From Prevotella sp. 10(H) (GTDB lineage: Bacteria > Bacteroidota > Bacteroidia > Bacteroidales > Dysgonomonadaceae): a stretch of 64,000 bases of DNA. The translations under genes were made by a program, and so were the position numbers. Shown here piece by piece: positions 59,185 through 64,000 of this stretch. Location: positions 124,001 through 188,000 of the forward strand of contig NZ_JOMI01000003.1 of NCBI RefSeq assembly GCF_000711235.1, read 5' to 3'. The notes below the pieces were generated by a model. It saw only the letters and a program-made list of their open reading frames with translations, was not told the origin of the DNA and did no database searches. Position 1 is the first letter of the stretch, and each line of letters starts with the position of its first letter.

Positions 59185-59228
59185 GATTTAATATATAACT
59201 ATATTAATTAATAAATATTAGCGTTTAG

Positions 59229-59264
59229 GCGGGGTGAATTTTGATAATTCACCCTGCTTTTTTG
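59229..59264 (+). terminator. Rho-independent terminator after nifJ
   Basis: A 12-bp stem (GCGGGGTGAATT / AATTCACCCTGC, one wobble) with a TTGAT loop is followed by seven T. Confidence 0.9.
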
Positions 59265-59350: not shown

Positions 59351-59358
59351 TATCTTTG
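59351..59358 (+). promoter_or_regulatory. -7 promoter box for the gldKLM operon
   Basis: TATCTTTG matches TAnnTTTG, 40 bases upstream of the gldK ATG. Confidence 0.6.
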
Positions 59359-59398: not shown

Positions 59399-61561
59399 AT
59401 GAACAAAAAGACTTTACTAACTTCACTACTATTGCTCTGTGTGTCAATAGTATCCTTAGCACAGACTAATCGTACTGAGCAGTATTCGGTTCCTAGCCGA
59501 AATGAATACCTTCTCAAAGATCCTCTCTGGTTTATCTCAATAGGGGCCGGGGCGCAGGTTTATTTTGGAGAAGATGACAATGGAGTTCCGGGCAATCGCA
59601 TTGGTCTGGACAAAAGAGCTACATTCGCACCGACTTTAACTATCGGCCGCCGGATGAGTAATATAATCACGCTTCGTCTGCAATTATCAGGAGGTAGCTT
59701 GCATGGTTTTAACGATGGTTGGAATGGAACCTATACAAGATGGTGGAAAGACGGTTCTAACGGAGACGATTTTATGAAAATATCCAAAGACCCACAATGG
59801 GACTATATGGGATGGGAAGAAGGCAAGGATTACATGTATGGTGTTGTAGACCACACTGGAGTGCCTGTATACCATGCAGCGTGGGGTGAGAATGAAAAAT
59901 ACTACATGCAGCATATGCGTTATTTCAGTGCTACAGGAGACGTGTCGCTGAATCTTATCAATCTGATAAAAGGATATCAACCTAACCGTAAGTTTGAAAT
60001 ATGGCCGTTCGCAGGTGTGGGCTGGTATCAACGTTTTGCTCATATGGGTACACTGAACAATACGTTTTTTGGAGGCAGCTTCGGTTTGAATCTGGGATAT
60101 AATATTACAAGAAAATTCCAGGTGTTTGCGGAAGGTAGAGGCGTAATTGTAAGCGACGGATTTGACGGACAAAAAGGAGACATGAGTAACAATGGTATTG
60201 TACAGGCTACAATGGGTATTGCTTACAAATTCGGAGACCCTAAATATATCGACCCTGCTATCGAAACACGTTTGCTTATGCCGTATAATATTGCCCGCGG
60301 TTGTGACAAGATGGTACTTGTTCCGGGGGGTAATATCGAGATGGGTACTGGTGTAGACCCTCTTTGGGGTGATTCTGTTCCTCGCAAATTAGTTGCTGTT
60401 AGTCCGTTCTGGATGGATGAAACAGAAGTAACGAACAAACAATATCGCGAATTTGTTTATTGGGTACGCGATTCGATAATAAGAGAACGTTTGGCAGACC
60501 CGGCTTATGGTGGAGACCCTACATTTAAAGTATTGGTAAGACCGAAAGATGATTTGAGCGCACCGGTCGGTCAGCGTCTTAACTGGACAAAATCCATTCC
60601 TTGGAAGAATCCTACAAGCAGAGAATCAGCTGCTATAGCCAGCGTTGTCGGAGGTAATCCGTTCGGTGCAGATAAAGGTGGCTTGGTATCATCAGCAATG
60701 AATTATAAATACGACTGGTTCGATTCGAAAAGCTACTATGCATTTTTAAGTAAATTGCAGGAGGGAGAAGCTTCTTCTATAGCAATTACTAAAGATACTG
60801 CATACGTGAACATGAGAGGAGATATTGTTCGCGAAACATTGTCGAGATTATCACATGGCGACAGAATCGATTTTACAAATACTTATATAGTAAATATATA
60901 TCCCGATGTAATGAGTTGGATGACAGACTTCGCCAATGCAAAGAGCGAACGTTATGTAGAAAGCTATTTTACATCTAAGGCTTACGATAATTTCCCTGTG
61001 GTTGGTGTATCATGGGAAGCAGCCGATGCATACTGTGCATGGCGTACCGATCGTTATGTTTACGATAGTAATTGTAGTCTGGCTGGTTTTGAAGGTTACA
61101 GACTCCCTACAGAAGCAGAATGGGAATTTGCAGCAAGAAACGGACGTTCGGAACTGGACTATCCGTGGTATTCTAACGAAACTCATACTACAGACGGCTT
61201 AGCGCATGCTAATTTCCGTGCATCCAAAGACCTGAAAGATCTAGTGTCGCCGGTTGCCACATTCCTGCCAAACCGGTTCGGTTTGTATGATATGGCCGGA
61301 AATGTTTCTGAATGGACAACTACTACATTTACCGAATCTGTTGACCGTATGGCTGACGAGGCAAACCCTGATTTCAGTTACAGGGCTGTTCTTGCCGATC
61401 CGGCGATTCTGAAACGCAAAATCGTGAAAGGCGGATCTTGGAAAGATGCTACAGTAAGATCAGGAGAAAGATCAGTAGAATTTCAGGATAAAGGACGCTC
61501 TTTCATCGGATTCAGATGTGTCAGATCGTGGGGTGTTGACGAAAAAGGTAGATTTAGATAA
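59399..61561 (+). CDS. gldK: GldK/PorK type IX secretion protein fused to an N-terminal outer-membrane beta-barrel
   Basis: GldK/PorK forms the periplasmic ring of the type IX secretion system with GldN, usually anchored as a lipoprotein of about 450-490 residues. Here the product has 720 residues. It starts with a cleavable signal peptide (ending SLAQ, about residue 21) without a lipobox. Residues about 40-290 look like an OmpA-type barrel (FISIGAGAQVYFGEDD, FEIWPFAGVGWYQRF, FGLNLGYNITRKFQVFAEG). Residues about 310-720 are the FGE-sulfatase-like GldK domain (MVLVPGGNIEMGTG, DETEVTNKQYREFV, RLPTEAEWEFAARNG, MAGNVSEW, FIGFRCVRS). The FGE catalytic cysteine pair is absent, as expected for GldK. 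gldL follows. Confidence 0.88.
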   Translation: MNKKTLLTSLLLLCVSIVSLAQTNRTEQYSVPSRNEYLLKDPLWFISIGAGAQVYFGEDDNGVPGNRIGLDKRATFAPTLTIGRRMSNIITLRLQLSGGSLHGFNDGWNGTYTRWWKDGSNGDDFMKISKDPQWDYMGWEEGKDYMYGVVDHTGVPVYHAAWGENEKYYMQHMRYFSATGDVSLNLINLIKGYQPNRKFEIWPFAGVGWYQRFAHMGTLNNTFFGGSFGLNLGYNITRKFQVFAEGRGVIVSDGFDGQKGDMSNNGIVQATMGIAYKFGDPKYIDPAIETRLLMPYNIARGCDKMVLVPGGNIEMGTGVDPLWGDSVPRKLVAVSPFWMDETEVTNKQYREFVYWVRDSIIRERLADPAYGGDPTFKVLVRPKDDLSAPVGQRLNWTKSIPWKNPTSRESAAIASVVGGNPFGADKGGLVSSAMNYKYDWFDSKSYYAFLSKLQEGEASSIAITKDTAYVNMRGDIVRETLSRLSHGDRIDFTNTYIVNIYPDVMSWMTDFANAKSERYVESYFTSKAYDNFPVVGVSWEAADAYCAWRTDRYVYDSNCSLAGFEGYRLPTEAEWEFAARNGRSELDYPWYSNETHTTDGLAHANFRASKDLKDLVSPVATFLPNRFGLYDMAGNVSEWTTTTFTESVDRMADEANPDFSYRAVLADPAILKRKIVKGGSWKDATVRSGERSVEFQDKGRSFIGFRCVRSWGVDEKGRFR

Positions 61562-61616
61562 TAAATCGACAAAATATAAGTTATATACTTATATATAATA
61601 TTTATAGGTGAACAAG

Positions 61617-62531
61617 ATGGCAAAGAGAGATAATATTAAACATTTCATATCCAGTAGAAAAGGACAGATAATATTCAACTATTTATATAGCTGGGGGGCT
61701 GCAGTTGTGATCATTGGAGCCATGTTTAAGATTATTCATCTTCCTTTTGCCGATTACATACTAATGGCGGGAATGATTACAGAAGCTATAGTGTTTTTCA
61801 TTTCCGCATTTGATTACATTTCACCGACTCCGGCTACAGAAACCCCTGCAAATGCAGGTGTTTTTGTCGGTAGCAGTGTTACCGGTGGTACCGTAGTAGC
61901 ACCTCCGGGAGCAGCAAGAGCCTCAACAGAATCAGGAAAAGGTAAAGTCGAGGGTTCAGGCTCGGTTGTTATTATAGGAGGTGGCGGAAATGCAGGTAGT
62001 GGAAGTTATGCCGGATCTTCGGGCATGTCAAATGCTCAGGGTTCAGGTGGTACATCAGTTGGCTCTCCGTCTGTGGCATCAGGAAATACTGCAGGTGGAA
62101 GCAAAAATGTTTCTCCGGAATATGCTCAAAGTCTAAATGACACAGCTCAAAATCTGGAAGAGTTCTCTACTACAATACAATCATTGAATGAAGCATCCCA
62201 GAAGTTGCTGGGTGCGTATAAACATGTGACCGAAACTCAGGGTTTTGTAGATAATCTGGCAACATTAAACGAGAATGTAAGTGGACTGAATGATGTTTTC
62301 AATACACAATTGCAAACAATAAACGAACAGATGTCTGCTATCAGATATATCAATGATAGCCTGATCAGGATGAAAGGCCTGTATGACGGCGCTATCGGAG
62401 ATAGTTATATGTTCAGGGAAGAATCTGCAAAAATGACTAAGCATATCGAAGCATTGAATAATGTATATGCTCGCTTATTACAGGCTATGACAACAAATAA
62501 CAACAATAATATGAACCCAACTAATTTCTAA
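61617..62531 (+). CDS. gldL: Type IX secretion / gliding motor protein GldL (PorL)
   Basis: GldL forms with GldM the proton-driven inner-membrane motor of type IX secretion. From ATG 61617 the product has 304 residues; GTG 61608 would add three. Two transmembrane helices (about 19-38 and 46-65) flank a short loop, and the second contains E56, matching the motor glutamate of GldL. Residues about 85-165 are an unusually Gly/Ser-rich linker. A coiled-coil region (about 170-290, TIQSLNEASQKLLGAYKHV) follows. gldM begins 42 bases later. Confidence 0.92.
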   Translation: MAKRDNIKHFISSRKGQIIFNYLYSWGAAVVIIGAMFKIIHLPFADYILMAGMITEAIVFFISAFDYISPTPATETPANAGVFVGSSVTGGTVVAPPGAARASTESGKGKVEGSGSVVIIGGGGNAGSGSYAGSSGMSNAQGSGGTSVGSPSVASGNTAGGSKNVSPEYAQSLNDTAQNLEEFSTTIQSLNEASQKLLGAYKHVTETQGFVDNLATLNENVSGLNDVFNTQLQTINEQMSAIRYINDSLIRMKGLYDGAIGDSYMFREESAKMTKHIEALNNVYARLLQAMTTNNNNNMNPTNF

Positions 62532-62573: not shown

Positions 62574-64000
62574 ATGGCATTGAGTAGAGGGCAAATGACG
62601 CGACAGAAGATGATAAATCTGATGTATCTGGTTTTCATTGCTATGCTTGCTTTAAATGTATCCACAGAGGTTCTGGACGGGTTTGTATTAGTTAACGATA
62701 ACCTTCAGGAGAATATAGAGGTTACAAACGCACGTAATAAACAGATATATACCGATATCGATGAAGCATATACTTCTAATCCTGAGAAAGCAAAAACAGG
62801 ATACGATATATCGCAGGATATAAGACGTAAGACCGATTCGCTCTTTAACTATATACAGTACTTAAAACAGGAGATAGCTAAGAAGAGTGATGGTGCGGAT
62901 GCCGATATCGATAACCTGAAATCGAAAGATAATCTCGATGCTTCTTCGGAAGTAATGATATCACCCGTCGGCGGACAGGGGAATAAATTGAAAGGGTTGA
63001 TTGACGAATACCGTGACGGAATATTGGTCTTGATCTCGGATAATGCGAAGAAAGATGTCGTGAGCAAGACTTTATCTACTGAGCCGAACGAAAGGGCCAG
63101 AAAAGACGGTAAGAGTTGGTTGCAAGCATCTTTTGACAGGATGCCGAGTATAGCAGCAATAACCTTTTTGTCTGAATTGCAGGTAAATGTGAGACAAGCT
63201 GAAGGCGAAGTCCTCAACAACCTTATTCAGAATATAGATATAAAAGATTTGCGTGTAAATCAATTGAGCGCATTTGTTGTACCGCAATCTAATATGGTAA
63301 TGAGAGGAACTAACTATTCAGCTCAGATTATCATGGCGGCAGTAGATACAACACAGCGTCCGACGATAGTAGTCAATGGCAAAGAGTTGCCAAAAGAGAA
63401 GAATGGCTTATACGAATTTAATGCTACAGGAACAGGAAAGCAAAGCTTCAACGGATACATTGAAATGATGGATAGGAGCGGGCTTCCTCTTAGGCGTGAG
63501 TTTAAGCAGGAGTATACGGTCATGGAACCGATGGCTACTGTTGCTCCGTTGCTGATGGATGTACTTTATTCAGGTATTCCTAATCAGGTCAGTATATCTG
63601 TTCCGGGAGTAGCCGTCAGTGATGTGTCAGCTTCCGCTTTAGATGGCGGAACATTGACTTCATCCGGTAATGGGCTATGGGTTGCAACACCGTCTTCGGC
63701 GAAAATTGGGCAAAAATTTGTTATAGCCGTTACTGCTAAAGTGAACGGAGTATCACAAATAGTAGCAAGAAAAGAATTCAGGATACGTCCTTTGCCTCCG
63801 GCATTAGCATACATCGAATATAACGATGCTAACGGTAGTCCGAGGAAGTTTAGAAAAGGAGCCTTGTCGAGGGCAGTTATTTTAAATTCTCCGGGAATTA
63901 AGGCATCTATTGACGATGGTATTCTTGACATACAGTTTACAGTGCTAAGTTTTAGAACATATTCTTTCGACGCTATGGGAAATACTACTCCGGAACTATC
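62574..64000 (+). CDS. gldM: Type IX secretion / gliding motor protein GldM (PorM), partial
   Basis: I translated this open frame to the right edge; about 475 codons are visible with no stop. The product opens MALSRGQMTRQKMINLMYLV, with a single N-terminal transmembrane helix (about 13-32) followed by ALNVSTEVLDGF, the GldM/PorM hallmark. A helical domain (about 40-200, SWLQASFDRMPSIAAITFL) and beta-rich periplasmic domains (VVPQSNMVMRGTNYSAQI, SVPGVAVSDV) follow. GldM spans the periplasm to touch the GldK/GldN ring. The C-terminus lies outside the window, as gldN probably does. Confidence 0.95.
   Translation, partial: MALSRGQMTRQKMINLMYLVFIAMLALNVSTEVLDGFVLVNDNLQENIEVTNARNKQIYTDIDEAYTSNPEKAKTGYDISQDIRRKTDSLFNYIQYLKQEIAKKSDGADADIDNLKSKDNLDASSEVMISPVGGQGNKLKGLIDEYRDGILVLISDNAKKDVVSKTLSTEPNERARKDGKSWLQASFDRMPSIAAITFLSELQVNVRQAEGEVLNNLIQNIDIKDLRVNQLSAFVVPQSNMVMRGTNYSAQIIMAAVDTTQRPTIVVNGKELPKEKNGLYEFNATGTGKQSFNGYIEMMDRSGLPLRREFKQEYTVMEPMATVAPLLMDVLYSGIPNQVSISVPGVAVSDVSASALDGGTLTSSGNGLWVATPSSAKIGQKFVIAVTAKVNGVSQIVARKEFRIRPLPPALAYIEYNDANGSPRKFRKGALSRAVILNSPGIKASIDDGILDIQFTVLSFRTYSFDAMGNTTPEL

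Follow-up and report, generated by a model that had tools for sequence, protein, structure and literature searches.

How would a GldK protein be built into the type IX secretion system (T9SS) if it begins not with a lipid anchor but with a beta-barrel? The question is raised by a gene at positions 59399..61561 (+ strand) of the 64,000-nucleotide stretch of DNA analysed here (the window), which comes from a genome deposited as Prevotella sp. 10(H). The gene, which we call gldK2, is intact and consists of one open frame of 720 codons with an ATG start, and its product of 720 aa joins a barrel to a GldK domain. In F. johnsoniae, Cys343 of GldK forms disulfides with the C-tails of two barrels, SprF and PorG (Liu et al. 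2025, PMC12635249), and Cys356 of P. gingivalis PorK is the equivalent residue (PMC12635249). Through the GldK-barrel disulfide the barrels are linked to the track as it moves, and such disulfide tethering of membrane proteins had, as of 2025, no known analogy in another biological mechanical system (PMC12635249). This disulfide tether of PorG and SprF to GldK suggests the most likely meaning of the fusion: a peptide-bond tether in place of a disulfide tether is the best explanation for GldK2. Searches of the open-licence literature found neither a GldK-barrel fusion nor the Dysgonomonas locus described here; the domains themselves are known, and what is new is their meaningful combination.

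GldK2 carries an OmpA-family barrel in place of the lipid anchor

The N-terminus of GldK2, MNKKTLLTSLLLLCVSIVSLAQ, reads as a signal peptide of the signal-peptidase-I type without a usable lipobox (residues 1-21, 59399..59461, + strand). The cysteine at position 14 lies within the hydrophobic stretch, has no G, A or S before it, and one of the 20 orthologues carries Ser there instead. A lipobox is missing from all 20 orthologous fusions, and the aligned lipobox Cys is present in 50 of 51 proteins of the lipoprotein type, GldK1. The signal peptide is followed by a predicted eight-stranded beta-barrel of the OmpA family (residues 44-278, 59528..60232, + strand), for which structure prediction, structural comparison and profile alignment agree. 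AlphaFold2 modelling of the mature fragment gave eight long strands (23-35, 58-64, 69-82, 150-163, 178-192, 198-214, 219-230 and 244-257) with pLDDT of ~70-91, block values within the strands being mostly ~75-91. The top Foldseek matches of the barrel model were OmpA, Ail, OmpX and NspA, with target-length TM-scores mostly between 0.56 and 0.76, and hhalign aligned the N-terminal part with the genome's own OmpA barrels at a probability of 100 (E 2e-54). The full-length model, built on an alignment of nine sequences (pLDDT 44), is informative for the barrel only; its GldK half is poor due to the shallow alignment, and that half is assigned by sequence homology.

Residues 305-710 (60311..61528, + strand) constitute a full FGE-like GldK/PorK domain, which matched the GldK model TIGR03525 over residues 304-710 with an E-value of 1.1e-110 and 370.7 bits, above the curated cut-off of 350, and the solved P. 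gingivalis PorK chains at ~1e-107. GldJ, which is a track-associated paralogue of GldK and also has an FGE-like domain, differs in being a lipoprotein, and GldK2 scored only 89.6 and 86.8 bits against the GldJ models TIGR03524 and TIGR03530, below their cut-offs of 458 and 383. When the entire protein was searched against Pfam, FGE-sulfatase was the sole match and no domain was found in residues 22-290; likewise, no NCBIfam model matched residues 1-304. An initial annotation, made from the letters of the window, had correctly described a signal peptide without lipobox, an N-terminal OmpA-type barrel occupying the place of the lipid anchor, and a full GldK domain. Its claim of a fusion stands as well, and only its boundary has moved: the barrel, which it had extended to about residue 290, ends at ~278, and the GldK domain starts at ~304. 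The possibility that a barrel is simply the normal N-terminus of GldK was ruled out, all other sampled Bacteroidia GldKs being lipoproteins without a barrel.

Between the two halves lies a linker (residues 279-304, 60233..60310, + strand) comparable in length to the N-terminal arm of the lipoprotein GldK1. It contains C302 (60302-60304, + strand), which together with C559 in the GldK domain (61073..61075, + strand) is present in 16 of the 20 fusions, both residues being absent from the remaining four; the pair is specific to the fusion. This co-occurrence suggests that C302 and C559 may form an extra disulfide that pins the linker.

The predicted barrel would be located in the outer membrane, and its origin lies with the OmpA family. 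The genome encodes three OmpA-family proteins. GldK2 is homologous to Bacteroidota OmpA proteins over its eight-stranded N-terminal part, but has the GldK domain where OmpA proteins have a C-terminal peptidoglycan-binding domain: PF00691, the model for the latter, is present in an OmpA paralogue (L005) and missing from the fusion. PF19573 (DUF6089), the PorG barrel family, an identification that the Cys-bearing C-tails also fit, did not match the fusion, and PorG is encoded by a separate gene. A derivation of the barrel from PorG with concomitant loss of PorG was ruled out, since PorG is present with its Cys tail.

gldL and gldM occur once and share the operon of the fusion gene

The gene order at the locus is gldK2-gldL-gldM-gldN2. 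A stem-loop resembling an intrinsic terminator (59227..59259, + strand; a 14-pair stem followed by TTTTTG) lies between an upstream pyruvate-ferredoxin oxidoreductase-like gene and gldK2, and a similar stem follows gldN2, both being pattern matches only. The element TATCTTTG (59351..59358, + strand) is found 48 nt upstream of the gldK2 ATG, and 19 of 20 orthologues have a TAnnTTTG element (TATCTTTG or TACCTTTG) at a distance of 44-50 nt before the start codon. TAnnTTTG is the Bacteroidota -7 promoter consensus. Downstream of gldK2, gldL (61608..62531, + strand, probable start ATG at 61617; TIGR03513, 1.3e-40) and gldM (62574..64000, + strand, cut by the end of the window; TIGR03517, 4e-140) are the genome's only copies; the gldL search returned two match pieces, which belong to one single gene. 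The gene for GldN2 follows gldM beyond the window (G000 C3:188167-189027).

The fusion is not the only GldK of this genome. A second GldK, GldK1, of 474 aa with the lipobox LLVSC, is encoded at C3:273 kb, some ~85-88 kb from the fusion, in a porP-gldK-gldN cluster (C3:271.9-275.7 kb; L009 7103-10603) that contains neither gldL nor gldM. The fusion therefore does not replace the genome's GldK, and a reading of it as the sole GldK was ruled out. The canonical porP-gldK-gldN cluster of Dysgonomonas has lost gldL and gldM, which are now sited with the fusion. Tethering of PorP at the GldK1 locus was considered and ruled out, the PorP tails there being without Cys. Other T9SS parts found in the genome were one SprA, C-terminal secretion signals of both type A and type B, and PorG.

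GldK2 and GldN2 arose once and have been conserved together

The nearest named relatives of the source genome are Dysgonomonas. A search for the same fusion among GldK homologues, which had been proposed as a check, found it in 20 of 25 Dysgonomonas genomes, and in none of the other genera of the family. The frame is common to all 20 orthologues, with dN/dS of ~0.03-0.12 in both the barrel half and the GldK half, indicating that the fusion is maintained and that it is neither a chance open reading frame nor a product of a frameshift or an assembly join. GldN2 is present in exactly the 20 genomes with GldK2, and both proteins are under strong purifying selection.

In the tree, all K2 sequences fall into one clade (SH-aLRT 100) that is nested among the GldKs of the family (98) and has a long stem branch of 1.04 substitutions per site. 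N2 also forms one clade, and the same two genomes (G021 and G023) are outermost in both the K2 and N2 trees. Read from these trees, K2 is the product of one duplication within the family, followed by barrel capture and fast divergence, and then by constraint. Two Dysgonomonas genomes, G005 and G016, have gldLM at a separate locus and neither K2 nor N2, and they form deep branches in the tree of lipoprotein GldKs. At the G016 locus (L083 1726-4796) the oxidoreductase gene is separated from gldL by several lipoprotein-like genes; the G005 locus is L053. In a third genome (G006) K2 and N2 are present and K1 and N1 were not found, in an assembly that is 88% complete.

Two entries from this survey deserve comment. 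A record labelled Prevotella sp. (L046, JAISSD010000106.1) contains the fusion locus of Dysgonomonas and falls among the Dysgonomonas sequences, so its label is probably wrong. One genome (G101, L061 3126-5162) encodes a long GldK of 678 aa, which was considered as a further Bacteroidia fusion and ruled out: this lipoprotein owes its length to insertions within its GldK domain and has kept the tether Cys.

The tether cysteine is lost specifically in the fusion

In the alignment of GldKs, the position of the barrel-tethering cysteine (PorK C356, GldK C343) corresponds to Leu601 of GldK2 (61199..61201, + strand); PorK C356 was placed in this column by letter-by-letter numbering from the PorK chain. 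All 20 fusions have Leu at this position. By contrast, all 51 lipoprotein GldKs sampled at the levels of genus, family and order have the Cys, as do 19 of 20 from the wider class. In total, the tether Cys occurs in 70 of 71 lipoprotein GldKs from Bacteroidia, as against 0 of the 27 barrel-fused GldKs sampled, seven of which belong to the second lineage described below; these figures count sequences, not independent events. The lone Bacteroidia lipoprotein GldK without it (L163, from G062) has Lys in an otherwise unusual stretch.

In Dysgonomonas, GldK1 retains both the lipobox and the tether Cys, and PorG has two Cys in its C-tail in 21 of 21 genomes. The loss of the Cys is therefore specific to the fusion, and the disulfide system is intact for GldK1. 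Since PorG and GldK1 persist, the fusion is an addition to the disulfide system in Dysgonomonas, not a replacement of it. That GldK2 has gained a barrel and lost both lipid anchor and tether Cys suggests an evolutionary exchange of the disulfide for a direct protein fusion.

Ring contacts are remodelled and GldN contacts are largely kept

The initial annotation had proposed that the fusion imposes a fixed 1:1 ratio of barrel to ring subunit in a variant T9SS ring. We examined this using the contact residues of the PorKN ring (PMC12421860). The mapping uses the numbering of the mature PorK protein, which the landmarks A168, T236, C237, V239 and W47 fit, and in which F264 reads P. At the listed contact sites, GldK1 has the PorK residue in 20 of 31 cases and GldK2 in 9 of 31. 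All 20 fusions retain the PorN-anchoring residues D198, Y398, N244, K419 and W47, and two other PorN-binding residues, E342 and F334, are lost. The PorK-PorK contact loop 181-184 is deleted in all 20 fusions, Y406 and R170 are replaced in nearly all of them, and other PorK-PorK contacts are replaced as well. Binding of GldN by GldK2 thus looks retained, and GldK2 self-association must use other contacts or be absent, which makes a PorKN-like ring uncertain. The remodelling of the PorK-PorK contacts is the main reason why the 1:1 ring model was not adopted here.

Other readings of GldK2 were weighed as well. GldK2-GldN2 could be a dock or bearing that is fixed in the outer membrane and serves the GldM arm, its barrel being a static anchor and not part of a moving track that drags a client barrel. 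The operon with the only gldLM and the altered self-association surface would agree with such a dock, and loss of the client Cys would fit a part that carries no separate client. However, in known systems GldK-GldN is the moving part (PMC12635249), and two of the genomes without K2 (G005 and G016), which encode GldLM at a locus of its own, seem to be complete without it. We consider a static dock rather unlikely. A further possibility is that GldK2 is a minority subunit in a mixed PorKN-type ring with GldK1, to which it would add occasional barrel anchors. Nearly all of these genomes do have both paralogues and one motor, and the five retained GldN-binding residues would allow it, but the divergence of the PorK-PorK contacts and the loop deletion in every fusion speak against joint assembly, the perfect co-occurrence of GldK2 with a dedicated GldN2 points to a separate pair, and G006 has that pair with no K1 or N1 found in its incomplete assembly; a mixed ring is, in our view, unlikely. 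Finally, GldK2 might no longer belong to the T9SS and instead be an unrelated protein of the surface or periplasm that has an FGE-like domain, as the long stem branch and the changed contact residues might suggest. We regard this as very improbable: wherever gldK2 occurs, it shares an operon with gldN2 and the sole gldL and gldM; the TIGR03525 score lies above the curated cut-off; and the GldN-contact residues are kept.

A second lineage of probable barrel-GldK proteins

Outside the class Bacteroidia, seven genomes from three families encode a GldK-like protein of 601-673 residues beside GldL- and GldM-like genes (L135 5830-7812, L136 6287-8272, L137 2383-4377, L140 6064-8085, L141 5717-7525, L142 6319-8124 and L145 6113-7933). 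These proteins share with GldK2 the layout of a signal peptide, a beta-rich probable barrel and a GldK-like FGE domain. At the tether position they have R, N, T or K, and none of the seven has Cys. They differ from GldK2 in scoring far below the TIGR03525 cut-off and in the sequence of the barrel, which in one group is weakly similar to that of K2 (E 7e-5, probability 62) and in the other shows no similarity to it. OMP_b-brl matched two of the seven proteins, with E-values of 0.003-0.007. A search for PorG in the seven genomes gave no match above the cut-off, though PorG could be too diverged to be seen, and no Cys-bearing GldK was found in them. The recurrence, beside GldL- and GldM-like genes, of a probable barrel without tether Cys or detected PorG speaks in favour of the peptide-tether reading. 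The short lipoprotein FGE paralogues of this lineage are also without the tether Cys, and the absence of the Cys may simply predate the disulfide. Judged from these sequences, the second lineage looks like an independent or a much older fusion.

A proposed peptide-tethered barrel on the GldK-GldN track

Our findings lead us to favour the following mechanism. In ordinary T9SS and gliding machines, barrels such as PorG or SprF are held on GldK/PorK by a disulfide at a single exposed Cys. The GldLM motor drives the track of GldK and GldN and thereby pulls the barrels along in the membrane. GldK2 is a duplicated GldK whose lipid-anchored N-terminus has been replaced by an OmpA-family barrel. With the barrel held permanently by the peptide chain, lipid anchor and tether Cys would both become dispensable, and both are gone. 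GldK2 would pair with its own GldN2; the genes of both form an operon with the genome's single copies of gldL and gldM, and one motor would presumably serve two outer-membrane assemblies: the lipoprotein GldK1-GldN1 with disulfide-linked PorG, and the barrel-anchored GldK2-GldN2. We thus regard it as reasonably probable that GldK2 is a track-side subunit with a peptide-tethered barrel, acting with GldN2 and the only GldLM alongside GldK1-GldN1-PorG. Driving of GldK2 by GldM, as well as the pushing of a load by the barrel, would follow from this arrangement.

Such a protein resembles PorK and GldK of P. gingivalis and F. johnsoniae in its GldK domain, in its operon with GldL, GldM and GldN, and in the largely kept PorN-binding residues, but differs from them in the 280-residue N-terminal barrel without a lipobox, in the change of the tether Cys to Leu, in the changed PorK-PorK contact residues, and in its coexistence with a normal GldK. 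It resembles the PorG and SprF systems in that an outer-membrane barrel is covalently attached to GldK (PMC12635249), and PorG is also predicted to be eight-stranded. Unlike these, the barrel of GldK2 is attached by the peptide chain and not by a disulfide, belongs to the OmpA family with no match to the PorG family, and runs directly into the GldK domain without a free periplasmic Cys C-tail.

It is tempting to go further and suppose that disulfide and peptide fusion are two interchangeable covalent couplings of barrel to track, that fusion has at least two origins, all in proteins lacking the tether Cys, and that the Dysgonomonas GldLM drives both couplings side by side; we offer this broader view tentatively, as a possibility that falls somewhat short of even chances. 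A barrel-track fusion in which every orthologue is without the tether Cys provides independent evolutionary support for the principle of covalent coupling. The fusion would be its non-reversible version, and it poses the question of whether T9SS export or surface motion needs bond making and breaking, or attachment alone. Having a single motor and both types of GldK, Dysgonomonas offers a natural setting for that comparison.
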